NCBI GenBank assembly: GCA_001599975.1
Contig: BCIO01000006.1
Span: 1,705,652-1,769,651 of the forward strand
DNA from: Cystobasidiopsis lactophilus
Taxonomy: Eukaryota > Basidiomycota > Agaricostilbomycetes > Agaricostilbales > Chionosphaeraceae
Direction of reading: 5' to 3'
DNA length: 64,000 nucleotides
Part shown: positions 19,681 to 58,206 of the stretch, in pieces
How positions within the stretch are numbered: position 1 is the stretch's first letter
Layout of the letters: every line of letters starts with the position of its first letter
The notes under the pieces: model-generated
The model's database searches: none
What the model saw: only the letters and a program-made list of their open reading frames with translations
What the model was told of the DNA's origin: nothing
Translations under genes and position numbers: made by a program

Positions 19681-19689
19681 GCCTCCAGC

Positions 19690-26181: not shown

Positions 26182-28155
26182 ATGCCCAAGAGGCTGCGAG
26201 AGGGCGAGCTGGCCATCCAGGCTAACGAGGAAGGCTCCAAAAAGAAGGTTGGCGCCCACCTCGCTTTCACATCCTCCTTCAAAGGCCTGAAAAAGGTCGA
26301 CTTCTGTCAAAAGTCGAAAAAGAGGCGAAAGAAGAGCTTCCGAGCTGCGACGCAGATGGTGACGGACTCGGACGAGGACGAGATCAAGTCGGAGGATGTG
26401 GGCGAGCTCGAATCGCAGTGGATTGGCCTCGAGGGCGATCTGGGGCTGCAGAAGCAAAACTCTGCCGAACTCAAAGACGAGGAGGAGGACGAGCTAGCTT
26501 GGCTCGAGGCCAGCGCCGACTCGATGTTCAAGCAGCAAGCCAAGGCCCCTCAGCAGCAGCAGGCCGGCGCTGAATTGTTGTCGGAGATGACCCCCCATCA
26601 AGAAGTGCTAGACAGCTCAGGCATGCGGCTGGACATCGCGCGGCTGGCCTCTGTCGTCCAGCACACCGTCGAGCATTTGGGCGCCGAGTACGACCCTCAC
26701 CTCGGTCGGTTTGACATCGGAAGGCCGCCTGCTCCACGCTCTGCGTTTTTATCTCAGAAAGAGGCGGGAGATGACCCAGTCGTTGCTCACGAGGAGGAGG
26801 AGTCGAGCCCGGAGCCAGCTGTCCAGACGGAAGAGGAGGGAGCGCCGGCGCATCCAACGCCATTCAAGCAGCCCGCGACGTTCTGGGTCGAGGTGCCGCG
26901 CGTTTTCGTATCAGCTTCAGAGAAGGACGACTCTCCCACGCTCGAGCAAGAGCCTCCCTCCGTCCAGCGCCAACGTGGCCCTCCTTCTCGTCGTGGACCA
27001 GGCCGCCCTCGCAAGAAGTCATCTCAGCTCAGGGACCACAAGCAACCAGCTCGAACCTACTGCCCGCCTTCACCTCCGCCATCGTCGTCATCTGCCGGGT
27101 TGGAGACCGGGAGGAAGGAGACCTCGACGGACGATGCAGAGCAAGGCTCGGAGCCCGAGTCGGAGGAGGGTAGCGCCGTCGTCGCTTTGTCGCCCAGCCC
27201 GCCCCCTCCTTCTCTACAGCCCTCACCTCAAGGGCACAAGCGTGTGACCAAGACCAAGACCGCCCCCATCAAAACGCCCACCAAACTCAAGGCAATACGC
27301 AACGTCAAGGATAAGCCGATGGGAAAGCCGAAGTCCAAGTTCAAAGAGGGAAGGGCCACGCCCGATCAAGCCAGTGAAGAGGAGTGGCAACCCTTGCGCC
27401 GCAGACCAAGAGGACAACCCAATACCAACCCATCTTTACCCAAGAAACGGCTGAACCTCAATCAGGTCCTCTACGACCCAGATGAGGACGCCTCCGTCCA
27501 TCTACCGGAGCTTCCTGCGCCCTTTTCTGAGCCTGCGCATCCTCTACAAGACTTCGTCTTTAGACGCGAATCGGCTTCCAGCGAAGCTGGCCTCGAACTT
27601 GCCCATCACCCTTGGCAGTTTTTCATGCCTGCGGGCGACGGCACTGCTGCATTGGTCCCGACTGACGATGGGTTCAGTCCTAGCATGTACCCTGGCCGGC
27701 TTGCCTCAGAAGAAGATGGAGATGGTAGCCCCACAACCAAGGTGCCCAGCCCGAAGCAGTGCATGCAGCTCAAATCTGAGCAGCGTTCTTTAGCGATGGC
27801 GACGCGCTTGGTCCTTTCCAACCCGGCTTTGACCCAAGCGCAGGCTCAAAAATATGGCGATGTTCTCGGATTCCGAATTCGCTACGGAACATGGACAAAG
27901 ACTGAGGATCGGGTCATCCTTGATGCCGTCGCTCAAGCCGCAGACTCGCACGCTGTTCAGCACCGATCTTTGATCCAATGTTTTTGGGGAGAGCCCTCCA
28001 CCAGCCCTCGTTTGGCGGCGGCCTACCAAGAGCTTCAAAGCACGCTCCTCCATCGCCTCTACCGTCGACCCCTCAAAACCATCCTGGCTCGAGTTCGGCA
28101 AATCGTGACGGTCTGGTTCGTCTCCCTTCCCTGCTCCTCTTGTTCTCTTCACTGA
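26182..28155 (+). CDS. Truncated Reb1/TTF1-like protein (family member E)
   Basis: Open frame of about 657 residues from ATG 26182 (MPKRLREGELAIQANEEG). Long acidic, Ser/Pro-rich and Lys-rich segments suggest a nuclear disordered protein: 'DSDEDEIKSED', 'RRGPGRPRKK' (AT-hook-like GRP core, about residue 270), 'KKRLNLNQ'. Near the end, 'YGTWTKTEDRVILDAVAQAA' followed by 'LLHRLYRRPLKTILARVRQI' matches the first lobe of the Myb-like region of genes A-D ('KWSNSESAAIEAG', 'LLDRRPLRTIKTRA'). The two canonical Myb repeats that should follow are absent. The frame ends in a region with a possible GTTCGT donor (28118) and TTACCAG acceptor (28173), so a short alternative ending is possible. DNA binding would rest on the remaining lobe and AT-hook. 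Function unknown. Confidence 0.65.
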   Translation: MPKRLREGELAIQANEEGSKKKVGAHLAFTSSFKGLKKVDFCQKSKKRRKKSFRAATQMVTDSDEDEIKSEDVGELESQWIGLEGDLGLQKQNSAELKDEEEDELAWLEASADSMFKQQAKAPQQQQAGAELLSEMTPHQEVLDSSGMRLDIARLASVVQHTVEHLGAEYDPHLGRFDIGRPPAPRSAFLSQKEAGDDPVVAHEEEESSPEPAVQTEEEGAPAHPTPFKQPATFWVEVPRVFVSASEKDDSPTLEQEPPSVQRQRGPPSRRGPGRPRKKSSQLRDHKQPARTYCPPSPPPSSSSAGLETGRKETSTDDAEQGSEPESEEGSAVVALSPSPPPPSLQPSPQGHKRVTKTKTAPIKTPTKLKAIRNVKDKPMGKPKSKFKEGRATPDQASEEEWQPLRRRPRGQPNTNPSLPKKRLNLNQVLYDPDEDASVHLPELPAPFSEPAHPLQDFVFRRESASSEAGLELAHHPWQFFMPAGDGTAALVPTDDGFSPSMYPGRLASEEDGDGSPTTKVPSPKQCMQLKSEQRSLAMATRLVLSNPALTQAQAQKYGDVLGFRIRYGTWTKTEDRVILDAVAQAADSHAVQHRSLIQCFWGEPSTSPRLAAAYQELQSTLLHRLYRRPLKTILARVRQIVTVWFVSLPCSSCSLH

Positions 28156-28435
28156 TTGCCCCCGTGCTTACCAGACGTCGTTCTTCGGGTGCGAGAGGGA
28201 GGGAGGATGAATGGCAAAAAAGCAGCTGACACGAGTTCCAAAAAGACTTGAAGGTGATGGGGAGGGAGTTTCGAGTAAAGAGTGGCTTTAGATGATCGAC
28301 AGAGTGCAACGTCCAAAAAAGTCTCATGTCCGCCTCCTTTGAGATGCGCGCACAGAGATTCGATTGCATAGCGAGCGGAAGGAAATATATGTGCCCTCGA
28401 GAGGTCTCTCAGAAAGGCCAACTGCAGCCCATCTT

Positions 28436-29719
28436 CTAGGTATGCAGAGCAGACAGCTGGTCGAGCAGAGTTTGCTTCAAAGGCAACCAAGAGCGGCCAG
28501 CATAGCGCTGAAGTAGCTCGTCCGATCGTGTCCTATCCAGCTCTTGCTTACCAGCAGCCGGCAGGTCAAAGTCGGCGACGATCTTCTTGTTGGGGTAAGC
28601 TTCGCGGAAGATGGCCAGAATGTCGTTGATGCTCGTAGGCGGGACACCGGCAGCCCAAAGGCGCTCGTGGTTGAAGTCGGAAGCGAGCAAGGCGCCGACG
28701 TGGACCACAGCCGAATCGCGGACGTCTACGATCCAGTATGGAGGCGAGAACTGGAAGCAAGAAGCGACTTCTCAGGCTCGGCTCAGGACATAATGGAGGT
28801 GGAAAGAGCCTACAAAGCCAATGATTGGGTTGTTCTCGACCTGACCTTGAAATAGCATCGACAAATACGTCGAGGTGGAGTAGACTCCATCGGCTGGGTT
28901 GGCAGGAGGGCCCAAAACGACGTGCGGCAAGACAGTATTGACAGCAAATGTGGGCTGGTATGCACCAGACCGTTTAGGCAAGAAGGCTCTGTGGGGGCGA
29001 GCACGGCGGGCTCACCTTGGCTTCGGCTACCCACTTCCAAAGCGCTTGCTCGCCGCGAACCTTGCTCGCAACGTAAACCAATGTGCCTTTGAAAGGGTGG
29101 TCGTTGGGCAGCTAAAAATGTCCCATTGTCAGAACGTGCCAATCACAGCGACCCAACGACTCACTTCGTACGCCATTTTGGTGGCTCCTTCGTTCCATTC
29201 ATCGGTCGAGACCTTGACATCAGTTCCAGCCACTGGCGAGTAATGAGAGACACAAGATGAGGTGACCACCACGCTCTTGACGGTCGACACTTCGGTGGCG
29301 GATTTGAGGATGCCGATGGTCATGTCGATAGAGGAAGCGACCGACTCGTCGATGTTGGCGGTTGGGCCGAAAGCTTTGCTGGGATCCAAAGCAAGATGGA
29401 CAACGCCGGCAACGCCTTCAAGAGCTGACTTGAAAGCGCCAGGCTGTTCGGCGTTGGGAACTTCAACGAAGGAAAGATGACCAGCTCCATAGAGGCTATC
29501 GATCTTCTCCTTGAGGGGCTTGGCTTTGGTGGCGCTGCGAATGACACCCTTCACGTTGTAGCCTTTCGAAACAAGTTCTTCGACCACGGAGCTGCAGAGC
29601 ACGACACTGAGCACGGGCGGGTAGTCCAATTGAAACTCGAGAACCCACGCGCCGAGGAAGCCTGTTGTGCCTGTAACCAGCACAGTGGAGCCTTTGGGGA
29701 GTCTGTCGGTAGCAGCCAT
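28436..29719 (-). CDS. NAD(P)-dependent reductase, extended SDR (GRE2/CCR-like)
   Basis: A ketone/aldehyde reductase of the extended short-chain dehydrogenase family (dihydroflavonol/cinnamoyl-CoA reductase and yeast Gre2 branch). Five exons fit: 29719-29649, 29591-29165, 29111-29016, 28954-28814 and 28750-28436, making 349 residues, typical for the family. The Rossmann motif 'TGTTGFLG' is at residues 16-23. The catalytic 'YVASK' is at 179-183 and 'VVTSSCVSHY' supplies the upstream Ser region. 'LPHVVLGPP' and 'WIVDVRDSAVVHVGAL' are the usual downstream landmarks. Substrate not predictable. Donors GTGGGT, GTGAGT, GTGAGC and GTAGGC differ from the GTNCGT set of the housekeeping genes. Divergent from gene A. 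Confidence 0.88.
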
Positions 29720-30501
29720 TGCTGTGGAAGGAAGCCTGACAAGAGGTGCCAAGTGCCAGTTCGCTCCGGCTTTTGCCCGGACATCGTTGCTGATCAAACA
29801 CCGCGTTTAGTCAGCCTGAACCGGGCTCCGTATCACATGTCTCCGCATCTGCGGAAGGGCATTGCGATTCCCAAAATGCACGAACGCGTTCATGGCCGTC
29901 GGTGGCAAACGCAGGCAGGTCGAGCTCGAGTGTTTCTTTTCTCTTTTTTTTTCTTGCGGCACGAGCGGCGGTATTTCTTTTCTCTCTTGTTCTGCGGATG
30001 TCCTCTGGCCCTCACGATTCTTTGAGAGCAGGTCGTTTGCTTGCAGCCATCTGAGTCACTCCGATCGTCTGGAAGTGACTGAGGATGCCTACTTTTCCAG
30101 GAGCCCGAGACTTGAGACCTGACCAACTCGGAGCGCCTTGTCAAACCGCGACGGATTGATTCTTGCTTTACTTTCTTCGCTGTTTACCTCTTAGGCCTTT
30201 GATAGCATCACCAAGAAGTGCAAAAGTTTCAAAGATGCCACCCAGCTGCCCTTCGTCGCGCTCCCGGCTCGCTCGAGATGATTTGCTCACTTTGCCCAAT
30301 GTCGCGTCTGCTCCTGTGTCTTCGTTTGAGACGATCATTTGACATCTACAACACGATGAAGATCAGGATGGGACGCTGGTCGGACCAACTTGGCCTCAGA
30401 GGACGCGTCGTGACTGCTCTTCTCTCGGAGACTTTTTTGACAGCAACCCTGTTCTCTGCTTGCCTTCTTCTCCTCGCTCGACCAGCACAGTTCTGCTTGC
30501 C
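29720..30501. other. Divergent promoter region, SDR and Reb1-like gene A
   Basis: About 780 bases. The right part, from about 30193, is near-identical to the upstream region of gene D in inverted orientation (see the repeat entry). The left part has a T-rich tract (29936-29954). In gene D the upstream frame is open for 95 codons before the ATG; here it is interrupted by TGA at about 30340, which supports the ATG at 30502 as the start. Confidence 0.5.
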
Positions 30502-30735
30502 ATGCCACACCTGCGTTGGGACGACAACGGCACAGTGCTGCCTGCCAGTGGGAAAGCTGCAGAGGAGCCTGTAGGTTCACTTTCTATGGAAGCTGGGAGG
30601 AGAGACGTAAAGCTGACAGCTGTCAAGTTGCATGCCTCTAAGAAGCGACCAGCGAACCCAGTCACACGAGACGCAGATGGTATGAAGCCAGAGAATCAGG
30701 TAAGCCCGTCTCGACGCTCGAAAGGCGAAACACTC
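30193..30735 (+). repeat. Near-identical duplicated block, copy at gene A 5' end
   Basis: Starts TTTGATAGCATCACCAAGAA and covers the upstream region, all of exon 1 and the first intron of gene A. The minus strand of about 57970-58505 reads the same with only scattered differences. Similarity is much higher than between the downstream exons of A and D. Confidence 0.8.
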
Positions 30736-32460
30736 AAAGGTGGTGATCCAGCTCAACAAAACATTGCAAACTCCAAGGGCTGCGAACCAAACGCCGACCA
30801 TCTTCTTCTCCGGGCCTCAGGTCATCACGAAGCAAATTCCCATTCGACCCACTTTCCAACGTCGTGGCCCGCCTTTCTCCCAGCCTCCCTTTCGGCGCCC
30901 TCTTCCACCTCTCAAAGCCGCTCCCTGGCCATTGCCACGGATTCCGACTCCCTCCGACACCTCTTCTGACGACGCGCCGCTGCCCAAGAAGCCGTGTAAT
31001 TTGCTGATCGGTGACGACGACTTTGATTTGGTCGCACACTCTGCCCGATCCTTCTTCAACGGACTTTCGCCGTTTGCCAAGTCTTTCCTCTGGGAATCTA
31101 CCTTGACCAAGCGGAAAGCTAAAGCTGTTGAACACCTCTTGGGCTTCGCCGTTCGCTGGAACAAGTTCTCCAAGGCGGAACTGCGAGCTATGGAGGCTGT
31201 TGTGCGAGCAGTTGCAGGTCGGCATCAGATAACCGACGAGACATTGATCAACATGTTCTTGTGGCACAAGAGAAACGACGTCCATCTTGAGCCGGCCCTT
31301 CATGACCTCTATTGTGGATGGCTCCATGTCCTCGACAGGCGTCCCTTACGAACTATCAAAATGCGAGCTTCGGTCCACTTCGATCCTCTCCGAACTGCTC
31401 GTCGGGCGTGGACTACCGCCGAGTGCGATCGCTTCGAAGCTTTATACGCCCAAATGGGCCCCAAGTGGAAACAGATGGCTCCTCGGATGGGGCGGTCGCG
31501 GTCCACCTTGAGCGCGCACTTTCAAAACTCTCGGGACCTTATGCTGCAGCACAAGAGCGGTCGATGGTCAACTACAGAAGATCTGAATTTGCTCGGCCTT
31601 GTTGCGAAGCGGCCAGCACTATGGCGCCAAAAGCGCTTGCGATACTGGGACTTAATTGGATCGGTGGTCGGAAGGACTGGGAAGCAATGTGCATATCGCT
31701 GGTAAGCCTTTACCCCATGAAGAGGAGCGTTGCTCAAGTCTATGCAGGGCTTACCTCCAGCGCGAGCGCGTAGGTGGTCCGACTTCGACAGGACCCTATG
31801 ATCGCTGGACACCATCACGCCAATCCAGGCTTTTTAAGTAGTGAGGTTGGAACTACTGTGGTCCTTCGGGTGTGGGCTAATAAACCTTTGGGAAGCTTGG
31901 GGCAATTTGCGGATTCGTCTGACGTCGATTGGGTCGCCGCCAAGTGTAGCACCAACCTCAGCATGTTCAGCCCTCCTCAAATCAGGTCCTTTTGGGCGCA
32001 CCGCGAGACAACTTTTTTGCACAAAATTGATCCTCTCGGCACCTTTCGAGAGGCAGTTGCCTACCACCTGGCCCAGGCGAAAGCGGAAAAGCGCCAACTT
32101 AAAGAGGCGGACTCTGCTGTGGTGGATCGGGTTGCTTTAGGCCTGGCGGACGAGGAAGATGAGGTGGTGGACGACGAGGCTCCAGTCCAGCAGCCCAAGA
32201 AACGCAAGCGGGTGGTGGAGGCGGACCCGGACCAGACCCTGCAGGACGTCGACCAAGCTGGCGAAAAGCGCTCCAAGCAAAAGAAGAAGCGCAAGCAAGC
32301 TGAGATGGAAGCGGACGAGGTGCCCAGCAAGAAGCGCAAGAAGGCGAGCCTGGAGCGAGGCGAGGTGGCGACCAAGGAGGACAAGCCCAAGAAGAGGAAA
32401 CGAGCGACAGAGTCGGAGCAGGACTTCATCATCAAGAAGAAGAGCAAGAAGCATGTCTGA
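30502..32460 (+). CDS. Reb1/TTF1-like Myb-domain protein (member A)
   Basis: Four exons fit in phase: 30502-30699, 30752-31701, 31748-31837 and 31896-32460, giving about 600 residues. Order: a basic N-terminus starting MPHLRWDDNGTVLP; the block 'FFSGPQVITKQIPIRPTF' plus Pro/Arg-rich sequence, shared by A, B and D; acidic 'DTSSDDAPLPKKP'; a Myb-like region of three parts ('RWNKFSKAELRAMEA..LLDRRPLRTIK'-type lobe, 'RRAWTTAECDRFEAL...GPKWKQMAPRMGRS', 'SGRWSTTEDLNLL...VGRTGKQCAYRW'); a conserved C-terminal domain ('FSPPQIRSFW', 'AYHLAQAKAEKRQLKEA'); and a Lys/Arg-Glu tail ending KKKSKKHV. The repeated W-x(n)-W spacing and final 'QC.YRW' are typical of Reb1/Rtf1/TTF-I. A nuclear DNA-binding factor is likely; its target is unknown. 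Confidence 0.75.
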
Positions 32461-33405
32461 GGGACTTGGGGCCATGGGACTTTGTCTGGTTCCAAGCCGT
32501 AGAGGCAGACGGGTTTGGGACCAAAGGACTTGAATGCGACCCTTTCTCCTTGCAGATTTGTCTCGGGGGACAGTGATAGCATCAAGTTTTTGGCTGCAGT
32601 GAAAGCAGCAAGTGGCAAACCTGAGAGCTGAAGGACGCCGCCGCGAGTTTGAACTTCAGGTTGGAGACGAACGCTGACTTGATCGCAATGCTGCCCTCAC
32701 TTCCTTGCTCTTTGCCGCGTCCAGCGATGTATGCTTAGATTCAGAAGTCAATCACCCAATCCAGGGCTTTGGAAGTCCCTCTAGCGGACGCACGATTGGG
32801 TTCGCTCACTTTGAATCTGCTCCGAGTTCTGCACGCTGCTGACTTCTCGGAAAGATATCGAGCAAAGCAGTACAGTCTCACCCTTCAGATTCAACAAGAG
32901 CAACTGCCATACTTCCTCGCTGCCGCGCTGGTCTTGCCATGCTTCGCTCCCGCTTTCATTCGCAAAGTGCCAATTTACGGCCATGTCCGATTCCAACACT
33001 GGCTTGACTCAGATGCTGCACAATGCTTTCAGCTCGACTTGTTGCGTCTGTTGGTTGCCCGAGTTTCAAGGTGGTCTGTGCTCAGACGTGCATCGCAATT
33101 GGCGTGACTTTTCTTGCCGAGCTCGTCTCTTGTCCTGTCTCCACGACTCGAGGCTACTTTGACGTGGCTAGGCGCATACAGAGGCAGGGTCAACCAGTGG
33201 ATCAAGAGCAGCTGGTCAGCGCGGTCACAGGCAAGCTCATTTGAGAGGTGTGTTTCGAGCGTCGCTCAGACCTTTTTTGACAGTAGCTTGCATCTGGCTA
33301 AGTTCACTCGATCCAGCTCTTCATCGCTTGTCCCACTCTTCCTCGCGGCCACCAACGGGCCGCACCGCGCCGAAGCCAAAGCAGCTTCCTCGTCCGCCGC
33401 AACAA
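32461..33405. other. A-B intergenic region with conserved upstream frame
   Basis: The first about 180 bases match the 3' flanks of B and D. At 33102-33243 a frame 'VTFLAELVSCPVSTTR' up to 'TGKLI' is conserved with the region upstream of gene C, but here it ends in TGA where C has CGA. It may be an untranslated or lost first exon. No separate gene is called. Confidence 0.4.
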
Positions 33406-35437
33406 ATGCCTCGAGACGTTCACGGCACCTCAACTTCCAAGTGGCGTCCCACTCCTCCACCGAAGCTTAAGCAAGATACCTCAAGTGCCCGCCCCAGGGC
33501 TGATGGTGAGACAATCCCATCTGAATCCACTTGATCTTCCTGAATTGGCTTCCCAGTGGCTTTGATTTCAGGAGACGCAAAGCCATCAGCCGCCCAGATG
33601 TTGGCCTCGGATGTGCGAGCGGCGAGTCGATCAGATGCCTACAACTCGCAGGATGGCAGGACAGAAGAGCAGGTAAGCCCACCTCGAAGCTCGAAAAGCG
33701 ACACACTCAGAAGGTGGTAATCCAGCCCAACAAATCTCAAAACTCAAAACCTGCTGCTGCGAAACAAAAGCCGACCGTCTTCTTTTCTGGTCCTCAAGTC
33801 ATCACGAAGCAGATGCCTGCTCGTCCTACTTTTCGGCGTCGCGGCCCGCCTTTCTCCCAGCCTTCCTTTCGACGACCTCCCCCGCGTCCCAAGGCAGCAC
33901 CTGCACCAATCCCACGGTTTCCAACCCCCTCTGACAGCTCTTCCGACGAGGAGCCGCTGCCCAAGAAGCCGCCAACCGTCCTCATCGACGAGAACTTTGA
34001 TCTCGCAGCTCACATGACCAAGTCGTTCTTCAGCCAGTTGTCTTCCTTTGCCAAAGAGACTTTGTGCGACTTGACTATCACCAGAGCAGAGGCTGCACGC
34101 CTTCGTCCACGGCTTGGATTCGACGTTAAGTGGTCCAAATGGTCGAATTCAGAGTCGGCGGCAATAGAGGCGGGCCTGGCGATCGTCGCTCGTTGGCACA
34201 ATCTCTCCCAGGAAACCTTGATCGACATCTTTTTCGACCAAAAGGCCATGCGCAATCGACCAGCCTCTTATGCCGATCTTTGCTTCGCCTGGCTCCACCT
34301 CCTTGATCGACGGCCACTTCGCACGATCAAAACGCGGGCAGCCCTCATGCTGGATCCCTATAGCCATGTCAAGGGAACGTTATCGTCCGCCGAAGAGATC
34401 CGATTCGACCAGCTCTTGCTCGAGATGGGGAAGCGGTGGGCGAAGATAGCACCGATTATGGAGCGTTCCCGTCGGACACTTCAGGACCACTACCGCCGAC
34501 GACAATCAAAATCTATGCCACATAGGAGTGGCCGCTGGACAAGGACAGAAGACGACGACTTGCGCAAGGCCGTGGCAGCGGCCCGCCGAGACGGAGTGCA
34601 GGGTCCTTTCTGGGCCTCCATTGGCGCCATTGTTGGTCGAACTGACTTACAATGTGTATACCGATGGTAAGCCAGCATACAAATCTATGAAGCTGAGCTC
34701 CACCAATGCCATGTCGCAGGAATCAACTTCAACGCGACCCGACAGAGCGCCCGAGCTGGACGAGGCGCGAAAGCTTGTGGACACCAAGCCTTATCTGCAG
34801 GTTGCTCAAAAAGTAGGAGCTATCACGTTTTTCAATCTTGCCTGCCAAGGCTGATCGAGTGCGGGCCAGCCTTCGTCAATATGAAGATGCAACGGCGGTC
34901 ATCTGGTCGGTGGTCAGAGCAGAGGCCAAACTCACCCTCTTTAGTGCCTTCCAACTTAGAGGCTTCTGGAACCACCGCTTCCGCCACTTTTTGCAGGTCA
35001 TCGACCCTCAGGGAAGCTTTCAAGATGCCGTCGTCTACCACCTTACCAAGGCGAAAGCGGAAAAGAAAAGGCTCAAGGAGGCCCAGTCTGCAGTGGTCGA
35101 CCTGGCTGCTCTTGGTCTGGTGGACGACGACAAGGAGGAGATGGTGGACGACGAGACTCCAGTCCAGCAGTCCAAGAAGCGCAAGCCGGTGGTGGAGGAG
35201 CACCCGGACCAGACCCTGAGGGACGCCGATCAGGCTGACCAAGCGCGCTTCAAGGGAAAGAAGAAGCGGACAAGAGCCGAGATGGAAGTGGACGAGCTGC
35301 CCAAGAAGAAGCGCAAGAAGGCGAGGCGGGAGCGAGGCGAAGTGGCGACCGAGGAGGACAAGCCCAAGAAGAGGAAGCGAGCGGCAGAGTCGGAGCGGGG
35401 TGTCATGATCAAGAAGAAGAGCAAGAAGCACGCCTGA
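33406..35437 (+). CDS. Reb1/TTF1-like Myb-domain protein (member B)
   Basis: Five exons fit: 33406-33505, 33572-33672, 33711-34666, 34720-34800 and 34870-35437, giving about 601 residues. It starts MPRDVHGTSTSKWRPTPPPK, the same opening as gene C. After 'FFSGPQVITKQMPARPTF' and an acidic patch come the Myb-like parts: 'KWSKWSNSESAAIEAG' and 'LLDRRPLRTIKTRA' (about 207-280), 'LLEMGKRWAKIAPIMERS' (about 310), and 'SGRWTRTEDDDLRKA..VGRTDLQCVYRW' (about 340-385). A conserved C-terminal domain ('YEDATAVIW', 'VYHLTKAKAEKKRLKEA') precedes a Lys/Arg-Glu tail ending KKKSKKHA, which would act as nuclear localisation signal. Exon phases are the same as in A, C and D from the Myb exon onward. Role inferred as sequence-specific DNA binding. 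Confidence 0.76.
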
Positions 35438-36202
35438 GCTACTTGGGGGCGCGGGCACTTTGTTTGGTGCCAAGCTTCAGAGGCGTAAGGGTTTTAGACC
35501 GAAACTTTTGAATGCGACCCTTTCTCCTTGCATTGCCCTCTCACAGACAGTGATAACACCAAGTTCCTGGCTACAATTCAAGCAGCAAATGGCAAACCTG
35601 AGAGTCGAAGAACGCCACCGCGAGTTTCGATTTGGAGACGGACGCCGCCGCCGACTTTGTCTTATTGTGGCCCTCGCTTCCTTTCTCTTTGGCTCTTACT
35701 TCCACGATTGCCTGATGAAACAGTCAATCCATAATTGGTTCGATTCGGCAATGAGTCGCCTCTCAAAAAGGACGGTCTCCGCCAATGGCACCTCTCTGCC
35801 GGACTGCTATTCTGGTTAGAGCCCTTTTGACACCTCTTTTGCCCTCGTCTCCTTTTGTTCAGAACCTAAATCGTGCCTGTGACACACCACAAGGAGCCAC
35901 AGCGAGAACTTGTGCTTGCCTCTGCCCCTCCTTTGCCTTCGTCGGCCAAAACGTCAAGTTCCACGATGTCGCCTCCCCCAGCGTCTTGCCCTGTGCCTTT
36001 GCTTGCGCCAACTTGTGTGCTCGCTGCAGAGAGCAGGCTTGCCGGCAGGCGATCGCCAGGGCACCTGACCCCGCCCGGCGCAGATCCTTTTCCGCATTTG
36101 GACAAGTCAAGTGGAAACGGCAGTTAAGCTCTGCAACACGCCCAGCAGCTGAGACGTGCTTGCCTTCTCGATTCTTACAAGCTTTCTCCTTCACCAGCAG
36201 TC
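35438..36202. other. Intergenic region, gene B to oxidase
   Basis: The first about 220 bases repeat the 3' flank seen after A and D (shared GAATGCGACCCTTTCTCCTT at about 35511). The rest is presumed promoter of the oxidase. No gene seen. Confidence 0.45.
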
Positions 36203-39200
36203 ATGATTGGCGCGTGGTTCCTCCTTTGGGCGGTAGCATTTGGCGCCGCGCTTTTGGACGCGAAGCAGCCTCATGAAGCAGGCGTTCTGCGGCCTCACCA
36301 TGGCTTCCGGCGCCTTGAACCAAGGGCAAAGACTACTTCGACCAAGGCGACATCATCGTCATCGATCAAAGCGACATCATCGTCGGCCAAGGCTTCCTCA
36401 TCTTCTTCGGCGCCCGCTGTCTCGACCTCGGCCCCATTGGGTACCACCAACATAGCGCGCCTTGCGTCATGTGTGGTAGTGGCTTCGTCTGAGACCGTGG
36501 ATTCTCCTGCCATCGCTGCGGTCGATGGCAATTTAGGCGGCTACACCAATTCTGATTCCGACCCAGCTGTGCACTTCGAATGGTCTTCGAACGGCCAAAC
36601 GACGGGCGCGACGCTCAAGCTCTCATGGCCTTCTGCCTACCTTATCTCTGAAATCCAGCTGTCGGATAGGCCCAATTTGGTGCGGGCCGTTTGTGTCCTC
36701 GATTTCTTCCAAGACGCTGACTTGCGCTCATGGTTAGGACGATCGGATCATGAATGGCACTATCAAATTTTCAGACGGCTCCATCATCTCTACTGGGGCC
36801 TTGAACAATGTGCGATCTTCATTCGCGTTTTGACCGAGTGCGGCTTATAATCCATGCAGGATGGCTCGATCAACGTCTTCGAGTTCCCGCCTCGCATGTC
36901 CAATTCAATTCTGCTCACAATTACGAAAGTCTCAGCGACCACCGCCAACTCTGGCTTATCGGAAATCAGGTGAGGCTGCACGTTCTCGCGTGTGAATCGG
37001 TTGTTGCTCAGCTTTGGTGCGCAGAGTGTTTGCGCCACTCAACTCGGCTTCCTCTTCCGCCAGTATGTCTTTGAGCGCCTCCAAGTCTTCCTCCGCGTCG
37101 TCTTCGGTGGTCTCCTCCTCCAGCAAAGCGAGTTCCTCTGCCTCCAGTAAAGCCAGCTCTTCCGCCTCCAGCAAAGCCAGCAGCTCAGCGTCGTCTTCCC
37201 TCAAAAGCTCGTCTGCTCCGCAACCCAGCTCATCTAGCGGTCCCATATCCACCGGCCTGGTCAACATCGCCAACTTGGCCGTCGTGACTGCTTCGTCTCA
37301 GGCCCCAGGTTCGCCTGCGTCGGCGGCCGTTGACGGCATCAACGCCGGCTACTTGACAAGTGACAACGACCCTGATCAAGACAAGGAGTGGAGCTCAAAC
37401 GGCGAGGGCAAGGGTGCCTGGTTGAAGCTCGTCTTCCCAAAAGCTTACTCGGTAAGTTTTTTTTGAAAATTGGTGGGCATTTCTGAAGCCTTCGCTCCAG
37501 ATCTCGGCCGTTTCCCTGGCTGATCGTCCCAATTTGGTGGATCAATGCACATCAGCAACCTTGACGTTCGACGACGGGAGCACCATCCCCATCTCTGCCC
37601 TCAATAACAATGGAGCTTTTACAAACTTCACCTTCCCTGCCAAATCGTCCAAGTCGCTCTTGTTCACAGTGGTCACAGTCTCTACGAGCACAGTTAACGT
37701 CGGACTTGCCGAGATCCAAGTCTTCGCGCCAGGAACCGCTGTACCCAGCTCGGCTTCTTCTAGTGTTCGGAGTTCCATCCACAATTCGCGCAAGAGCTCG
37801 AGTAACAGTGGTTTGCAGTCGCTCTCTGGCTCTTCCTCTGGCTTTAGCAGTACTATCAGTGGCTCAAGCCAGGCTAGCAGCTTGGCCTCTAGTGTTCGCA
37901 GTTCCGTCCACAATTCGCGCAAGAGCTCGAGTAACAGTGGCTCGCAGTCTTCCTCTGGCATCGGCTCTGGCTCCATTACTGCCAGTAGCACAATCAGTGC
38001 TTCGCTTTCATCCAGCTCTCAGCCATCTAGAAGCGGCAGTTCATCACATGCCAGCTCACTTGTCAGCCAATCCACTTCTTCAGCTCCTGTTTCTGCATCC
38101 ATTAGCAGTGCGTCTTCGAAATCCAGCTCGTCCGGCAGTCAATCCGGATCCTCGGCCTCTCCTTCTGCATCCAGCCAGTACAATCTTGCCCGACTAGCTA
38201 CGGCGACGGCGTCTTCCCAGGATCCCGGCTCCCCAGCTTCTGGCGTGAACGACGGCATTATCGCCGGCTACATTAGCAAAGATAGCGATCCAGATCAGGA
38301 CAAAGAGTGGGCGACATTGGGCGAGAAGGCGGGAGCGTGGATCAAGCTGACTTGGCCAGTCCCATACGTGGTGCGTGTGATCCAGTATCTCTCTGCCCCT
38401 TCTGACTTCCGTTCCTTGTTACAGATGTCAAGCGTCGCCATATCAGATCGTGTGAATCTCAACGACTCGGTTACCTCGGCGCGCCTCACCTTCGAGGATG
38501 GTTCGACTGTGCCCATCGGTGCCTTGATTAACGACGGTACTCCGACTCCTTTCAGCTTCGCTCCGAAGATATCCAAGACCCTCCTCTTCACTGTATTGTC
38601 GTGCTCGCCCGACACCTTCAACATTGGACTCGCAGAGCTCCAGGTCTTTGGAGCCGACAGCAGCATCACCTCAGGCATCAGCTCAGCTTCTCCGTCCGTC
38701 TCGGCTTCCGGTTCTAAAAGTGCCAGCGTGTCGGCATCAGCGTCCAGCGCTTCAGGCAGCGGGAAGCCGGCAGCCTCTGGCCTGGTCAACATCGGTCCCC
38801 GAGCGTTTGCTGTGGCTTCCTCAGAGGCATGGGGTGAGATCGTTTGCCAAATGCCTTTCAAGCTCCCGAATTTATGGCTGTCCACCACAGGTGCATCACC
38901 TGCCAGCGCCGCTATTGACGGAGTCGATGACGGCTACATCGTGCGTGTTTGAACTTCTGTCCATGCCGACCTTGCTGAGAGACCCAACAGAGCAACGACA
39001 ACGACCCAGGGGTCGCGAATGAATGGGCGACGCAGTATCAGACAGTTGGGGCCTTTTTGAACCTGACTTGGGACCGACCCTACCTGGTGCGGGCCTTTCT
39101 GGTGTGATTGAGACCAAAACCTCACGCAAAGCCGCAGATTTCGGCGCTGTCAATTGCTGATCGGTACGAAATCTTTTGCTGATCCCGCACGAAGAGAATC

Positions 39201-41843
39201 ACTCTGATAGACTTTGAGCAGGCCCAACGTCGCCGATCAAGTCACGAAAGCCACCATCACTTTCGGCAACAGCAATGGCTCGGCTTTGACAGTAGGGCCT
39301 CTTCTGAACGGCTATGGATATACGAATGTGTCTTTCACCCCGCGTATGGCAAGTAGCTTGCTATTCACGGTGACGGCGGTTTCTGCTTCCACCGTCGCCG
39401 CTGGTCTGGCGGAAATTATGGTCTGGGCAGTCGACAACCCACTACCTGCTGTAACGCCCGGCGCTTGGTCTCTTGTTCGCGGGCCCTCGACGAAGGTCAA
39501 CGCCATGCAAGTGACGGTAGTGGGGCCGAACTCCGTCCTCATCTTGGACAAGGCCGAAAACAATCCTGGAACGGCCAATTCTTTCTCAGGGTGGTCTTGG
39601 GTCGAGCACATGAACTTGGCGACAGGACAGCACCAGCTTCTGCCCGTTCAAACGAACTCGTATGTCTCAGCTTGTCTAGCTCGTCGCAGCCGGCTCAGTT
39701 CTCACTAGGTTCTGCGCCGGTGGCTCGCATCTTTCGAACGGCACGATGGTCAGCCTTAGTGGCAATGCTCCATACGGGTGAGTCAACGGGACGATTAATA
39801 TCAGCTCGAGTCTAACGAGGTAACACCAGGTTTGGTGATACGAGCGGCGTCACTTCGGCCCGCCTGTTCCAAAACTGTGGCGACAGCGGGTGCACGTACC
39901 AAGAATGGGCTTCGACCGTTCGCCTCTCTACACCGTGAGTGACTCATCTCTGTCTTAGCGGAGAAGCACTAAAAGGCCACACAGTCGGTGGTACGTCGGC
40001 ACGTGTCGACTCCAAGATGGCTCTTTGATCGCTTTCGGTGCGTATCGATTCATGCCCGATGAAAGAAGGGCCTAAAATGATTCTCAGGCGGTATGAACCA
40101 AACTGGGTTCACTGTAAGCCAATGCGGGCTTTACTACGCCACCGTTTGCTTACCCTACTTCCAGAACGAGGCCGACCTCGACAACCCGACCTACGAATTC
40201 TACCCGTCTAAGGGCCTTGGAAATGGCTTGCCGATCTATTCACCTTTATTGCATGATGCGCTGAACTCCAATGTTCGTTTTTCCCTTCGCACTCGCTGGC
40301 GCGCGCTCATGTCCGTCTGCAGCTCTTCCCTTTCATCGCTCTTTTGCCAAGTGAGTGCTACCATCGCTTCACTTCAATGCCACTTCTCAAAGATCAGCCT
40401 AGATGGCAAATTGTTCGTCGCTTCGAATCGGAAGGCCATGATCTTTGACTGGCAAACAAACACCGAAACAAGATTGCCCGACATCCCAAAGACCCGCATC
40501 ACCTACCCTTACACGGCTGCCGCCACCCTTTTGCCTCTTACGATTGCCAATAACTGGACTCCAGAGATCTTGCTCTGTGGTGGCAGCAATGTCAGTGATG
40601 CCCATTGGTTGCCATTGCGTGACACGCTGACGAGGTTTCCAGGTCGGATCGGATTCTTTGGACACCGGACTTTTGAGCAGCCAGAACCCTGCTACTAACA
40701 TCTGTTTGCGAATGGTCCTGACCTCTTCCGGTATCGCGGCTGGCTGGAAGCAAGATTCTGAAACGCTGCCCGAGAATCGTGTGATGGGCCAAGCGCTTTT
40801 GCTTCCAACTGGGCAGTGCGTACTTTGCGCATGAGGTCCTCAATTCAGCAGACTGATGCTATTTCCAACAGGGTCGTGATTGTGAACGGCGCCCAGACTG
40901 GTGTCGCAGGTACGTCTTGTCCGAACGCCGATTGCGTAGCCACCACTCATAGTTGAGCAAAGGCTACGCCGATTTGAACGATTGCGTTGGGTACTCGAAT
41001 GCGGACCACCCAGCTTTCCGGCCTGTGATGTATACACCCACCAATGCGCCTGGCTCCCGAATCTCCAACGCAGGGCTGCCGACTTCAGATATCCCAAGGA
41101 TGTACCATTCCTCGGCTACTCTGATGCCCTCTGGTAACATCTTTATCGCTGGATCCAATCCCAACGACATCTATCAGGGTGAGACTGCTCTCAAGTGCTC
41201 AAGACTTTCCGCTCACATCTTTGTCAGCTCCCGGCACCGTCAAGTACTTCACCGAGATGAGGACGGAGTTCCTGAATCCCTACTACATGTCGATGCAAAG
41301 GCCCAACATCACATCCGGACCGTCTTCAATGGGCTTTGGGGCCACAGTCACGATCAAGGCTCAGCTACCTGCTGGACTTCCGACTGCGAACGTCTCCGTC
41401 GTGCTCATGGATCTGTAGGTCCTCAATGAGCTTGTTCAAGCTCAGAGCTTTGCTGAAAGGCTTTCCGCAGTGGCTACTCAACTCACAGCTTGAACGTCGA
41501 CCTCAAGCTTGTCGAACTCGTCGTCAAGTCGGTGGCAGCGGACGGCACCCTGACTGTGACTGGTCCAATCAATGGATCGATGTTCGCCCCTGGGTGAGCT
41601 TTGGCCCTTCCCTTGCATCCTTGCTTCGTGCTCAAGCGCTGGCATAGCTACGGCTGGATCTTCGTGGTTTGCCAAGTGGGCGCCGTCGGTGTGCCGTCGG
41701 AGGGCATCAAGGTCTTGGTCGGAAGTGGTGCAGATCCGCCATACGACGCGGCTGCCCATGCCAACATGCTCAAAACCTATCCCGTCGCTGGCTTGGGCCC
41801 AGCGAAACTGCAAGCGAGGAGCAATCGCCTTTATTACAGCTGA
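36203..41843 (+). CDS. Secreted glyoxal/galactose-oxidase-like copper radical oxidase with four discoidin-like repeats
   Basis: Predicted to oxidise small aldehydes or alcohols to acids with release of H2O2 outside the cell. It opens with a signal peptide ([20 protein letters not shown]), then a Ser/Thr stretch and four related modules, each starting 'N(I/L)A.LA...ASS....SPA' with 'DGI.AGY' and 'EW' landmarks (about 36450, 37255, 38180 and 38785), separated by Ser-rich linkers. The oxidase part follows: '[20 protein letters not shown]' (39716, radical-site Cys), '[12 protein letters not shown]' (40184, Tyr ligand region), '[20 protein letters not shown]' (about 40769), '[20 protein letters not shown]' (about 41098, His ligand) and a C-terminal Ig-like domain (DUF1929 type) ending RLYYS. 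Many short introns; I did not resolve every exon, so protein length (about 1,400-1,500) is approximate. Confidence 0.8.
37759..37950 (+). repeat. Direct repeat in the Ser-rich linker of the oxidase
   Basis: A block of about 64 bases beginning TCTAGTGTTCG at 37759 recurs at 37888 with few differences (period 129 bases, in frame). Both encode S-V-R-S-S-(I/V)[11 protein letters not shown]. The linker has grown by in-frame duplication. Confidence 0.8.
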
Positions 41844-44680: not shown

Positions 44681-46346
<1,666 letters not shown>

Positions 46347-53108: not shown

Positions 53109-55449
53109 TCAAGGCAAGATCTCCACCACTTCTGAGATGCTGACGCGCTTCTTCCTCTTCTTCTTGTAGGCCACCGGGTAGACCTGCGGGTGCTGCTGCC
53201 ACTGGGGCTTTGGCGCTTGGACCGTGCACAGCCACTCCGGCTCGCTGCCTTCCGACTCCTCCTCGAGCTCGATGTCTTCGGGCCGCAGATGCACCAGCTT
53301 CTTCTTCTTTTGCTTGATTGGCTCCTCTTGCACGTCGTTGGTCGCCGGCATGGTCGAGATGAAGGGCTCTTCGGTGGCGACTCGCTTTCGCTTCTTCTTC
53401 TTGCGCTTGACCGGCTCCTCCTGCGACTTGACTTCACCGGCCGCGTCTTCGTCGTTCTCTGGCACTTCCACCAGCTCCAGACGTTGCTTGCGCTTCTTCT
53501 TCCTCTTCCTCTTGGCCGGTGGCTCCTCGACGTCCTCGACTTTGGGCTTGACGTCCTCGATCTCGGCACCGACCTCGCCAGAACGGTCCTTCTCGGTGCG
53601 ATTGCGATGCTGCACGTCGTTGGTCGCCGGCATGGTGGAGACGGAGGGCTCTGCGGTGGCGGCTCGCTTTCGCTTCTTCTTCTTGCGCTTGACCGGCTCC
53701 TCCTGCGACTTAACCTCAACGGCCTCGTCCTCGTCCTTCACTGGCGCTTCCACCAGCTCCAGACGTTGCTTGCGCTGCTCCTTCTTCTTCTTGGCCGGTG
53801 GCTCCTCGACGTCCTCGACCTTGGGCTTGGCGTCCTCGATCTCGGGCGCGACCTCGCCAGAACGGTCCTTCTCGGCGCGCTTGCGATGCTTCTTCTTGCG
53901 CTTCTTCCTGGGAGCCTCCTCTTCCTCGGTCTTGACGGACGCTTCCTCTTCCGCAGTAGCACGCTCTTCCGCCACCTCTTCCGGCGTGCGCCTCTTGACC
54001 TTCTTCTTGCGCGGCTGCTCTACGTCGTCGTCCGATGGGTCGCCAATGGTGATGTTGCAAAGAGCCTCAGCCTCGGCGAGTTCTTCGGCTTCTTCGAGGT
54101 CGCGCAGCTCCTCTTCGGCTTTGGCGAGGTAGTAGGCGATCGCTTCTCGGAAGGTACCGACTGGGTTGACATCGCGAAGGAATCTTTGCTCGCGCTTGAG
54201 CCAAAAGTCTCGAATTTGTGGTACGCTGAAGAGCGTGAAGTTCAGGTCTTCGCGCAGGGTTGCCCAGTGAATGGCCGAGGTGTCCTCAAAGTCCTGAATG
54301 CTGACATGATCTCTTAGTGTCATCGGAAGGGAGCGATGATGCCAAAGGCCTACTGCCGAAACAAGGTCACGCAGCGAGAGGGGTTCCAATGATTAGCCCG
54401 ATTTCTCGCCGGGTCCTGGACTTGAGTCTGGTCGCGCTGGTGTCGACGCCTTCCCACACTTTCAATTGACGTCACAATGTGCAACATGAAGCTTACCAAT
54501 GGCTCTCGCATTGAGAGGCCGTCCGCCCGACAGCTGAACCGACAAACGCCCAAAACGCGCCGGGAGGCGGATGCTTTCGGGCCGAGAGGACAGTTTGGCG
54601 CAAGAGTTCATCTTCATCAGGAGTCCACCTGCCAGATCGATGGGGCATACGTAGGTCTCGGGTACTGATGAAATGATCGTGCAGGCTGGATCTTGAGCGC
54701 TGCATGAAAGGCTGCATTTTCGTCCATTTTGGCCCCATCTCGGCGAAGAGCTTGTCGAAAAGGAGCACTTCATCGGCAGTGAGAGGACCTTTGACATGAT
54801 AAAACGGATTCAAGACTTTGGACGCCCGGCTCTTGATTGTCAACAAGGGGCGACGATCGAGTGCGTGAAGCCATGCCTCCAGTAAATCGATGTAAGGCTC
54901 GGGGCGATTGAACACCTGCGAATTGTCGAAGAACATATCGACGAGGGAATGCCGGTCCATCTTGTGCAACTTCGCGATTGCGGTCACGACGACTTCAATG
55001 GCTCTTGACTCGGTCTTGGACCACTTCTCCCATTTTACTTGAAAGGAAAGTTTCCCTTCAGTGTAGATGGCAGCTGCTTTTACTTTGGTGAGGCGTAGGT
55101 CACAAAGGAGTTTCTTTTCGAAAGGCAAGAGTTGGGAGAAGCGTGAAGTTTCGGTGAGAGTAAGCAGACTGAAATTGTCGAGGTCGAGCGGGAACGTTGA
55201 GGCAGCCGGCTTGCTGACAGCTTCATCATCCGAGCTGGACTCGCTCTCCTCCGACGTCTCGTCCTTCAGGTCGAAATGGGGAATGGGCCTCGGCAGCTTT
55301 CCTTTCGAAGGATGGGGAGTGGGACGTCGTTTGATTGCTGGGCCATCATCAGAGTCGGACTCGCTGTCGCTTGGGGTCTCTTCTTTGAGCTTGGGATGAG
55401 GAGTGGGTCGCCGCTTGGAAGTTGAGGATCCTTGGGCGTCTCGAGGCAT
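53109..55449 (-). CDS. Reb1/TTF1-like Myb-domain protein (member C), expanded tail
   Basis: Three exons on the minus strand: 55449-54497, 54449-54354 and 54300-53109, giving about 746 residues. It starts MPRDAQGSSTSKRRPTPHPK, like gene B. The 'FFSGPQVITK' block is missing and is replaced by two Ser/Asp-rich repeats ('SDSESDSDDGPAIKRRPTPH', 'SEESESSSDDEAVSKP'). The Myb-like parts are intact: 'KWEKWSKTESRAIEV', 'LDRRPLLTIKSRA', 'FAEMGPKWTKMQPFMQRS' and 'SGRWTPDEDELLRQT..VGRTASQCESHW'. The conserved C-terminal domain ('FEDTSAIHW', 'AYYLAKAEEELRDLEEA') leads to a very long Lys/Glu tail containing a 94-residue tandem duplication, which explains the extra length. The frame is open upstream to 55776, so an earlier start is possible. 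Confidence 0.74.
53331..53894 (-). repeat. Tandem 282-base duplication inside gene C
   Basis: The unit 53331-53612 repeats as 53613-53894 (CACGTCGTTGGTCGCCGGCA begins both). The period is 94 codons, so the frame is kept. Encoded landmarks in each copy: STMPATNDVQ, EKDRSGEV, KPKVEDVEEPPAK, RKQRLELVE and EVKSQEEPVKRKKKKRKR. Differences are scattered, so it is not brand new. Confidence 0.85.
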
Positions 55450-56239
55450 TTGCGGCGGCGGACGAGGAGGCTGCTCGGGCTTCTGCGCTCTGCGGCCCGA
55501 TGGTGGTCGCCAGGAAGAGTGAGAGACGACAGCAAAGGCTTCACCAAGCGAGTTTAGGACAGATGCAAGCCACTGCGAAAAAGGTCTGAGCGACCCTCGA
55601 AACACACCTCTCGGATGAGCTTGCCCGTGGCCACACTGGCCGACTGCTCTTGGCCCAGTCGCTGCCGCTGTCTTCGCTTGCTCCTGGCCGCGTCCAAGTA
55701 GCAGCGAGTCGTGGAGACAGGGCAAGAGACGAGCTCGGCAAGAAAAGTCACGCCTGTACGTCTGAGCACGGACCACCTTCGAACTCGAGTTGCTATTGGT
55801 GCGCCTGGGCAGCTAGACTGTAGTGATTTGGCCGATCTCTCAGAGAATTCGGCAGCGCGCAGGAATGGTGGATTTGGATCGGATTCGCAACAGATTCGAA
55901 GTGTGCCCAATCGTGCGTCCGCTAGAGCGACTTTCAGAACTCTGGCTCGGTCGATTGACTGCTGGAGCTAAACTTTCAACGGAATGCGACGCAGAACAGA
56001 GCAAACGATGACGACAATGCGACTAGGTCGGCGTTCGTCTCCAAAGTCGAACCTCACGGTGGCGTCATCCAGCTTTCAGGTTTGCCACTTGCTGCTTTCA
56101 CTGCAGCCAAGAGCTTGATGGTATCACTGTCTGTGAGAGGGCAATGCAAGGAGAAAGGGTCGCATTCAAAAGTTTTGCTCTAAAACCCGTACGCCTCTGC
56201 AGCTTGGCACCAAACAAAGCGCCCGCGCCCCCAAGTCCC
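55450..56239. other. D-C intergenic region with conserved upstream frame
   Basis: Counterpart of the A-B intergenic region, inverted. The minus strand at about 55610-55755 reads 'VTFLAELVSCPVSTTR' to 'TGKLIRE', then GTGTGT, which could be a donor. The 3' flank shared with A and B lies next to gene D. Confidence 0.45.
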
Positions 56240-58206
56240 TCACACATTCTTGCTCCTCTTCTTGATCTTGCCTTGCTGCTCCGACTCTGCCGCTCGTTTC
56301 CTCTTCTTGGACTTGTCCTCTTCGGTCGCCACTTCGCCGCGCTCTCGCCTCGCCTTCTTGCGCTTTCTCTTGGGCAGCTCGTCCGCTTCCATCTCGACTC
56401 TCTTCCGCTTCTTCTTCTCCTTGGAGCGCTCTTGCCCAGCTTGCTCGGTGTCCTGCTGGGTCTGGTCCGGGTGCTCCTCCGCCACCCGCTTGCGCTTCTT
56501 GGGCTGCCGGACTGGAGCCTCGTCGTCCATCACCTCGTTCTCGTCGTCCGACAGTCCAAGGGTAGCCAGGTCGACTACGGCAGAACGAGCCTCCTTGAGC
56601 TTGCGCTTCTCCGCTTTGGCCTGAGCGAGATAGTGCACGAGCGCTTCGTGGAAGTCGCCATCAGGGTTGACCTTTTGCAAGAAGCGCTGGTAGCGGGCGC
56701 TCCAGAATCTGTTGATTTGAACGGGGCTAAAGAGGTGCAACCTGGCTTGGACTTTGAGGGTAGACCAGATGACGGCGGATGTGTCTTCGTATTTGTGCAA
56801 GCTAACGGTCATGATGTAAGGCTAGAGAGCGTATTTGACAAAAAAAAGCCCAGCTTACTGTCGAAAAAGCCTGCATTGACGTGATGGAGTCCACAGGTTG
56901 CGGCGTCCGGATGCATCTTGAGAATCTGCGCGATCCCGTTGAAGAAGAGCCCTGAAAGCTCCCTGAGATTTCGTTCCGTCTGTGTCTATTAGAATGACTG
57001 ACCATCTACTTTTACATTGTGCGTCGTTTCGCCCAACTGTGCTGGCAATAGATGCCCAGGACTGTCTCGGCCGCCCACTTTCGCGACCTTCTGCCACTGC
57101 CTGCAACAACACGCGATCCTCTTCTCGACTCCACCGACCAGATCTGCGCGGCATTGCGTGCGTTCGCTGCTGTCGGTGGTGGGCATCAAGCGCACTTCGA
57201 GAGCGCTGCATCAGAGGTGCCATCTGGGTCCACTTTGGTCCCATCTCAGCATACAGCTTTTTGAACCGGACAGCCTCGGCTGGCGTAAGGGGTCCTTTGA
57301 TGTCGTGGTAAGGATCAAACATCAAATAGGCCCGAGTCTTGATTTTGTTGAGCGGCCGGCGATCGAGGAGATGCAGCCAAGCATACATCAGGTCATCGTA
57401 GGGAGCGGGCCTTTTGTATCTGTTCTTGGAATCGAAAAGCATGTCGATGAGAGACTCTTGGGTGATTCGATGCCATTTAGCGACGATCGCAAGACCCGCC
57501 TTGATGGCGGCCGACTCCGAATTTGAGAACTTGGCGTATTTGACATCGAAGCCCAAGCGAGTTCGAAGTTGAACGGCTTTTGCTCTAACTAAATTCAGGT
57601 CGCAGAGAGTCGCTTTCGCGAACGGGGACAGTTGGCAGAAGAATGACTTGGTCGAGTGGGAGGCGAGGTCGAAGTTCTCATCAATGAGCACAGTGGGCGG
57701 CTTCTTGGGCAGCGGCTCCTCGTCGGAAGAGCTGTCAGGTGGGGTGGGTAGCCGTGGAATTGGTGAAGGAGCAGCTTTCGGAGGAGGGCGCTGAAAGGGA
57801 GGCCGGGAGAAAGGCAGGCGACGGTGTTCGAAAGTGGGTCGAGGAGGGATCTTCTTGGTGATGACCTGAGGGCCGGAGAAGAAGAACGTGGGCCTCTGTT
57901 TGAAGGCAGTAGGCCTGGAGGTTTGTGACTGCTTCGAGGTTTGCGACTGATTCTCGAGCTGGAGCACCACTTGAGTGTGTCTCTTTTCGAGCGTCGAGAC
58001 GGGCTTACCTGCTTCTCTGGCTTCAAACCATCTGCGCCTCGTGTGACTGGGTTCGCTGCTCGCTTCTTAGACGCATGCAACTCGACAGCTGTCAGCTTTA
58101 CGTCTCTCCTCCCAGCTTCCATCGAAATCGAACTCACAGGCTCCTCTGCAGCCTTCCCGCTGGTAGGCAGCACTGTGCCGTTGTCGTTCCAACGCAGGTG
58201 TGGCAT
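56240..58206 (-). CDS. Reb1/TTF1-like Myb-domain protein (member D)
   Basis: Four exons fit in phase: 58206-58009, 57958-57003, 56951-56859 and 56801-56240, giving about 602 residues. It starts MPHLRWNDNGTVLPTSGKAA, nearly the same as A. It contains 'FFSGPQVITKKIPPRPTF', an acidic 'DSSSDEEPLPKKP' (shared with B), Myb-like parts 'KYAKFSNSESAAIKAG', 'LLDRRPLNKIKTRA', 'YAEMGPKWTQMAPLMQRS' and 'SGRWSREEDRVLLQA..VGRNDAQCKSRW', the C-terminal domain 'YEDTSAVIWSTLKVQARLHL', and a Lys/Arg-Glu tail ending KKRSKNV. The third exon needs an acceptor at TTTCAG (56952-56957), and the second needs CTCCAG rather than the site used at face value in A. With these the protein is intact. Role as for A. Confidence 0.76.

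Follow-up and report, generated by a model that had tools for sequence, protein, structure and literature searches.

A cluster of Reb1/TTF-I-like Myb genes with similar ends and diverged cores at a contig end of Cystobasidiopsis lactophilus

The DNA analyzed here, referred to as the window, is a stretch of 64,000 nt from Cystobasidiopsis lactophilus (contig BCIO01000006.1, here C6, of assembly GCA_001599975.1; positions 1,705,652 to 1,769,651 of the forward strand), the final base of which is also the final base of C6 (1,769,651). It carries a group of genes for Myb proteins resembling Reb1 and TTF-I. Four of these genes, named A, B, C and D, encode full Reb1-like proteins in spliced models. 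Gene A (30502-32460, plus strand, 600 amino acids (aa)) consists of exons 30502-30699, 30752-31701, 31748-31837 and 31896-32460, and gene B (33406-35437, plus strand, 600 aa) of exons 33406-33505, 33572-33672, 33726-34666, 34720-34812 and 34870-35437. On the minus strand lie gene C (55449-53109, 746 aa, with a longer tail; exons 55449-54497, 54449-54354 and 54300-53109) and gene D (58206-56240, 602 aa; exons 58206-58009, 57958-57003, 56951-56859 and 56801-56240). All four give uninterrupted proteins once GT/AG introns of 46-66 nt are removed, and two intron positions 3′ of the Myb region are common to them.

The order of parts in the A-D proteins is a MybAD-like lobe, two Myb repeats (R1 and R2), a conserved C-terminal domain and a Lys/Arg-Glu tail in which K+R make up 25-30% and D+E 22-23% of the residues. 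In each protein the Pfam family Myb_DNA-binding was matched in two stretches (E 2.4e-12 to 7.6e-14), and the only other family above the Pfam cut-offs was Myb_DNA-bind_6. All four match the motif Q-C-x(2)-(R/H)-W exactly, with QCAYRW in A, QCVYRW in B, QCESHW in C and QCKSRW in D. Identity to A amounts to 52% for B, 38% for C and 59% for D, and pairwise alignments of the four cores are far beyond chance (E 8e-79 to 1e-139). An initial annotation, made from the letters and their open reading frames, had named six gene starts and ascribed one full architecture, including this motif, to A-D. All six starts are present in the sequence, start codons included, and the intact spliced models, the Pfam Myb matches, the C-terminal domain and the basic-acidic tail bear out the common architecture. 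The tail of gene C contains an in-frame tandem duplication of about 282 nt (53329-53890, 91% identical).

Two further genes of the window, both on the plus strand and recognized by tblastn and by a hidden Markov model (HMM) of the lobe, resemble the first lobe of A-D. Gene E (26182-28155; lobe at about 27811-28095) is a 657-aa open frame matched by the D core query at a tblastn E of 7.5e-5. Gene F (42777-44470; lobe at about 43748-44050), with a single intron positioned by eye near 42828-42883, is a distant, probable member. With database size set to 12000, the lobe HMM found E at an E of 1e-21, F at 0.04 and gene I, which lies outside the window, at 1e-14. E and F match reciprocally genome-wide (tblastn E 8e-4 from the E lobe to F and 0.004 from F to E), and the F lobe reached an hhalign score of 27.6, whereas none of 30 shuffles exceeded 15.7. 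Homology in E, I and F stops just past the lobe. Neither E nor F had a Pfam match, no R1, R2 or C-terminal domain was found in E, and the open frame of I aligns by the lobe alone in profile and genome searches, the Pfam scan having covered E and F. These three, lacking the R1 and R2 repeats, are relatives of the lobe and not full members; that E and F keep only the first lobe, as first proposed, is thus clear for E and weakly indicated for F. E, G and H (described below) share an N-terminal motif (W..F.P.....AALVLT-like) that is not seen in A-D, the tblastn pieces being weak (E 0.03-0.05), and this split suggests two subfamilies.

The whole assembly of the window (22.1 Mb, 8 contigs) was searched with A DNA, the D core, the H core, the E lobe, F and the I lobe as queries. 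These searches gave full member G on the plus strand at approximately 1663.5-1664.5 kb of C6, full member H on the minus strand at 1690.9-1693.1 kb, the lobe-1-only member I on the minus strand at 1693.4-1694.8 kb, and one dispersed relative, R, at 3624.8 kb of contig C1, with lobe, R1, R2 and C-terminal domain. The cluster therefore comprises nine members (A-I) in about 100 kb, within the last 106 kb or so of C6, so that the earlier description of six members in 32 kb was correct as to the presence of the six (F weakly) and too low as to the count. R, whose identity to the proteins of the cluster is 19-25%, has these parts in the full order and is the candidate for the housekeeping Reb1/TTF-I gene. 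No family copy other than R was recognized outside the C6 cluster in the genome searches; all 8 of the matches listed for the I lobe fall within it, and weaker matches on C2 and C5 involve just the Myb-repeat part of the query. Myb_DNA-binding has 45 matches in the genome, 33 of them above the cut-off, and no second family cluster appeared among 18 non-cluster loci compared (one being R and two the same open reading frame), a comparison outside which some Myb matches fall. A second cluster considered at 4.05-4.36 Mb of C2 was unsupported: blastp covered 5 of the 11 Myb matches in that region, from 4 different reading frames, and the longest alignment, mutual or to A-D, spanned 52 residues. In a tree of the family only the A-D grouping is well supported (97/98); the tree is unrooted, with very long branches for R, G and H.

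A subtelomeric position for the cluster is unproven. No exact threefold TTAGGG was found at the contig end, and the last 2.5 kb of the window had no second match in the assembly in a search that skips simple repeats and very common words. The contig end itself (62900-64000) has scattered N and repetitive-looking text. A mating-type supergene was rejected as an explanation of the region, with STE3-family matches on C4 and C1 and none on C6.

A profile of seven members (A-D, G, H and R) was compared with the sequences of the PDB, and S. pombe Reb1 (5EYB) came first (E 8e-20) in one collinear stretch through R2 into the C-terminal domain. This alignment starts past the midpoint of the lobe and is unbroken through R2, the MybAD1 part lying outside the sequence alignment. 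With a profile of A-D, 5EYB was third (E 5e-9), in one stretch from within the lobe through R2, and no other listed Myb match begins as far upstream (column 252, vs. 273 for the next). Myb_DNA-binding was matched in 7/7 cores among matches listed to E 10, with A-D exceeding the cut-off. A-D contain two tandem Myb repeats, and in the 5EYB alignment a MybAD region lies immediately before R1, at the spacing of Reb1. An AlphaFold model of the D core, built from four sequences, was compared with known structures by Foldseek, a comparison with Reb1 that the initial annotation had proposed; its top two matches are the two chains of 5EYB (E 1.5e-3 and 3.4e-3; probability 1.00 and 0.99; 257 and 259 columns; template modeling (TM) score 0.31 and 0.30). 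Over the whole core, Reb1 (5EYB) is the closest solved Myb protein by the seven-member profile and by the fold ranking of this weak model.

Several results weigh against such kinship. With the A-D profile, SNAPC4 and c-Myb chains outscore 5EYB, though via separate repeats, and with the seven-member profile SNAPC4 comes near it (5e-19 vs. 8e-20), which leaves a narrow lead. The D core model is weak, with a predicted local distance difference test (pLDDT) of 64.9 and a predicted TM score of 0.44, and Foldseek gave no match to it at E 0.001. B, C and D have another residue in place of the first R1 tryptophan, so that R1 of these proteins may bind DNA differently. c-Myb and SNAPC4, which are the next-best PDB matches for the seven members and the best for A-D only, share the Myb repeats with the cluster but match as separate repeats, without the upstream lobe and the C-terminal domain in register. 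We conclude that the relationship of A-D to Reb1/TTF-I is supported by sequence comparison and by a low-confidence core model, and the Myb region does match Reb1, as had been claimed.

The C-terminal domain of A-D had initially been described as novel. It is present also in G, H and R (exon borders placed by eye) and hence is not specific to A-D, so the claim of novelty fails; moreover, the 5EYB alignment enters its first 35 or so residues (about 280-315 of 5EYB). Modeled alone with AlphaFold, the domain has three main helices (pLDDT 80.2). Its profile found only two chance-level matches among PDB sequences (E 0.94 and 1.3) and its model a sole fold match at E 9.5, both of which count against a relationship to Reb1. 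Kinship is argued here from the position of the domain, the 5EYB alignment and the presence in G, H and R; the domain appears to occupy the place of the Reb1 termination domain.

Comparison of the window with itself revealed that the similarity of the genes at the nucleotide level is concentrated at their ends. The 5′ flank and N-terminal part of A (30144-31080, plus strand; self-blastn and repeat search) are 83% identical to D 57615-58566 in inverted orientation, including 94% identity over 447 nt (30291-30737 vs. 57971-58417). By self-blastn, the tail and 3′ flank of A (32068-32825, plus strand) are 78.7% identical to D 55885-56629, A 32014-32714 is 78.5% identical to B 34988-35691, and the C-terminal domain, tail and 3′ flank of B (34878-35647, plus strand) are 80% identical to D 56029-56793. 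The 5′ flank and N-terminus of B (33060-33485, plus strand) are 79% identical, inverted, to C 55370-55787. Given these flank matches of A with D and of B with C, the pairs A-B and D-C are shown by flank homology to form, as we read them, an inverted pair of one two-gene unit. The DNA-binding cores, in contrast, are mostly without a nucleotide match in the self-comparison, the exception being a 69% stretch between B and D.

The same contrast was seen at fourfold-degenerate sites, with the core counted from the lobe through the C-terminal domain. Identity in the N-terminal part, the core and the tail, in this order, was 51/70, 21/68 and 26/33 for A vs. D (Fisher 1.3e-6 and 6.4e-6), 28/51, 18/62 and 27/32 for A vs. 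B, and 25/53, 32/85 and 27/32 for B vs. D. Tail identity with C is low (A-C 3/11, B-C 3/15, C-D 2/11), a result that speaks against codon bias as the source of the contrast. A, B and D are thus mosaics: their ends and flanks are similar, and synonymous sites in their cores are at or close to saturation. The simplest reading would be that genes with long-diverged cores underwent ectopic exchange at their ends, and replacement of cores would leave the same pattern. Other comparisons fit exchange less well: the difference between N-terminal part and core is not significant for B-D, B-C and C-D (p 0.29, 0.18 and 0.17), and it is reversed for A vs. C (0/11 vs. 19/59, p 0.029). For the N-terminal part (74 codons) the topology is firmly AD|BC, with an approximately unbiased (AU) test p of about 1.5e-6 for the others. 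Core quartet trees did not settle on a topology and did not reject that of the N-terminal part (AU p 0.23), so that conflicting trees were not obtained and the case for gene conversion rests on unequal divergence instead.

In lobe 1, R1, R2 and the C-terminal domain, nonsynonymous divergence (dN) ranged from 0.24 to 0.82 across the 24 comparisons among A-D, and synonymous divergence (dS) was saturated in 13 of them and 1.3-4.4 in the other 11. The dN/dS ratio in the 11 comparisons with estimable dS was 0.13-0.32, which fits constraint on the cores; the lone value above 1 (1.39) came from a 20-codon linker of A vs. C, too short to weigh. At eight Myb base-contact positions of A-D, assigned from c-Myb structures, the mean number of residue types is 3.12, compared with 2.26 in the rest of R1 and R2 (permutation p 0.022). 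None of the eight is invariant, whereas 28 of the 95 positions elsewhere in R1 and R2 are. This variability is only suggestive of different target sites per member, since exposed helix positions vary anyway.

With moderate confidence we favor, as the best explanation of the whole, a cluster of the Reb1/TTF-I type that arose by local duplication and exchange of gene ends, has diverged cores and serves as a source of roadblocks on DNA. The MybAD-like lobe together with R1 and R2 would form a DNA-winding, presumably DNA-binding core, and the very basic-acidic tail probably directs the proteins to the nucleus or nucleolus. Members would have arisen as local duplicates at one end of the contig. Subsequent ectopic exchange, for which gene conversion is the simplest mechanism, would have homogenized the ends and flanks of A, B and D, the DNA-binding cores of which seem to have stayed anciently diverged yet constrained. 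As the putative base-contact residues differ between paralogs, each full member probably recognizes a site of its own. The proteins most likely bind DNA as Reb1 does and, once bound, would most likely act as roadblocks for RNA polymerase I (Pol I), replication forks or nucleosomes, like Reb1 and Rtf1, and may also serve as chromatin organizers at their sites. R on C1 probably retains a housekeeping role at the ribosomal DNA (rDNA), and the lobe-only proteins E, I and perhaps F could, speculatively, compete or heterodimerize with the others. The function as site-specific roadblocks is presumed by analogy. It gains nothing from the core hexamer of yeast Reb1, which shows no enrichment in the window (10 occurrences, with 10.55 expected). 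One exact 18-base 18S probe found no rDNA in the assembly.

Rtf1 of S. pombe is a single gene; Reb1 and Nsi1 of S. cerevisiae are paralogs that are not known to form a local cluster. More generally, Reb1/TTF-I proteins are known as products of one or few genes per genome, for example Reb1 and Rtf1 in fission yeast. As described in part of PMC5368702, Reb1 binds Ter sites of the rDNA, arrests forks and Pol I, and has roles elsewhere in the genome too. Passages of PMC8970589 describe Reb1 on DNA as four helix-turn-helix units (MybAD1, AD2, R1 and R2) over two turns, with a termination domain that follows R2 and is dispensable for binding. S. pombe Reb1 (5EYB) shares with the cluster the collinear end of the lobe, R1, R2 and start of the termination domain; unlike it, the cluster has nine members here, lobe-only forms and a long Lys/Arg-Glu tail. 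Rtf1, according to sections of PMC10473836, is Reb1-like by model comparison and required for the RTS1 barrier, and by this description resembles the cluster members as a Reb1-like Myb protein with its own site and role. TTF1 is presented in part of PMC11358750 as the mammalian relative, which binds the rDNA terminator and arrests forks in a polar manner. Its Reb1-type Myb domain is like that of the cluster, whereas its regulatory region is N-terminal, and those passages mention no such cluster (PMC11358750). S. cerevisiae Reb1 and Nsi1, two Reb1-type Myb proteins of one genome, are both named in the same source (PMC11358750).

The features of the cluster could also be explained if its members were redundant or decaying Reb1-like duplicates, a by-product of an unstable chromosome end, with most of them doing little. 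Inverted and tandem local copies near the contig end, the lobe-only members E, I and F, and the in-frame tail duplication in C agree with this. However, the frames of A-D are intact and their splice sites conserved, the cores are constrained at old divergence according to the dN/dS values above, and the long open frame of E makes the lobe-only form no obviously broken copy; we thus regard this explanation as unlikely. Less probable still is a conflict-driven family whose cores diversify so as to track or evade selfish elements (transposons, rDNA parasites, drive loci), in the manner of other clustered DNA-binding families. The divergence of cores that lie between similar ends, the clustering and the greater variation of the contact positions relative to the remainder of R1 and R2 would suit it, but core divergence is old and under constraint, and none of the dN/dS values for lobe 1, R1, R2 or the C-terminal domain exceeds 1. 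Moreover, the window has 240 stop-to-stop frames of at least 100 aa, and the 30 frames outside A-F that were scanned with Pfam at E 0.01 (20 of 25 non-family frames picked by coding score, plus 10 others) contained no mobile-element enzyme, in particular no transposase, integrase or reverse transcriptase, bar a sub-threshold Pif1-type match. That the proteins are encoded by mobile elements carrying a Myb domain, an alternative which the initial annotation had named as a possible refutation, is disfavored and very improbable: the family is multicopy with inverted repeats, and the sub-threshold match (18898-19716) is to the Pif1 2B domain, which some transposons carry, but apart from the lack of enzymes in the scanned frames, the recognized copies all lie in one 100-kb region except R, the large inverted repeats of the window are the family genes themselves, and none of the 22 pattern matches obtained in one scan with two peptide patterns was confirmed as a viral relative.

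If the cluster is of the Reb1/TTF-I type with exchanged ends and diverged cores, as we favor, a further and rather doubtful extension would make the contig end a diversifying bank of fork-barrier or terminator proteins. Such a bank would have similar promoters and tails, interchangeable and differently targeted cores and lobe-only inhibitors or partners, and stalling at the members' own sites would possibly drive exchange. Proteins of this kind are known, but the group is unusual in its size, its clustering and its patchwork evolution. No local Reb1-like expansion was found in titles and abstract openings among the matches listed from the open-access literature, with subscription journals mostly outside this search, which is weak evidence of novelty. 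A clustered expansion with similar ends and diverged cores would lend itself to two questions: how the target sites of roadblock proteins change, and whether gene duplication multiplies programmed fork barriers. The lobe-only proteins would be a natural test of the MybAD region acting alone. If all members bind one site or are unexpressed, the cluster is a case of ordinary duplication.

No Rfam families were matched in the window. Among the scanned frames, Pfam identified as neighbors of the family an inositol polyphosphate kinase, an epimerase, tubulin cofactor A, an arginine methyltransferase and an HSF-type factor, as well as a glyoxal-oxidase-like piece and two DUF7402 pieces; the remaining scanned frames were without a match save that to Pif1 2B, which scored 17.5 bits vs. 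a cut-off of 23.9. The two DUF7402 pieces and the glyoxal-oxidase-like piece lie at 36206-41426, together with an 85-nt direct repeat at 37759-37972. Segments 11231-11450 and 13477-13696 (about 220 nt) are 69% identical and are perhaps a small local duplicate.

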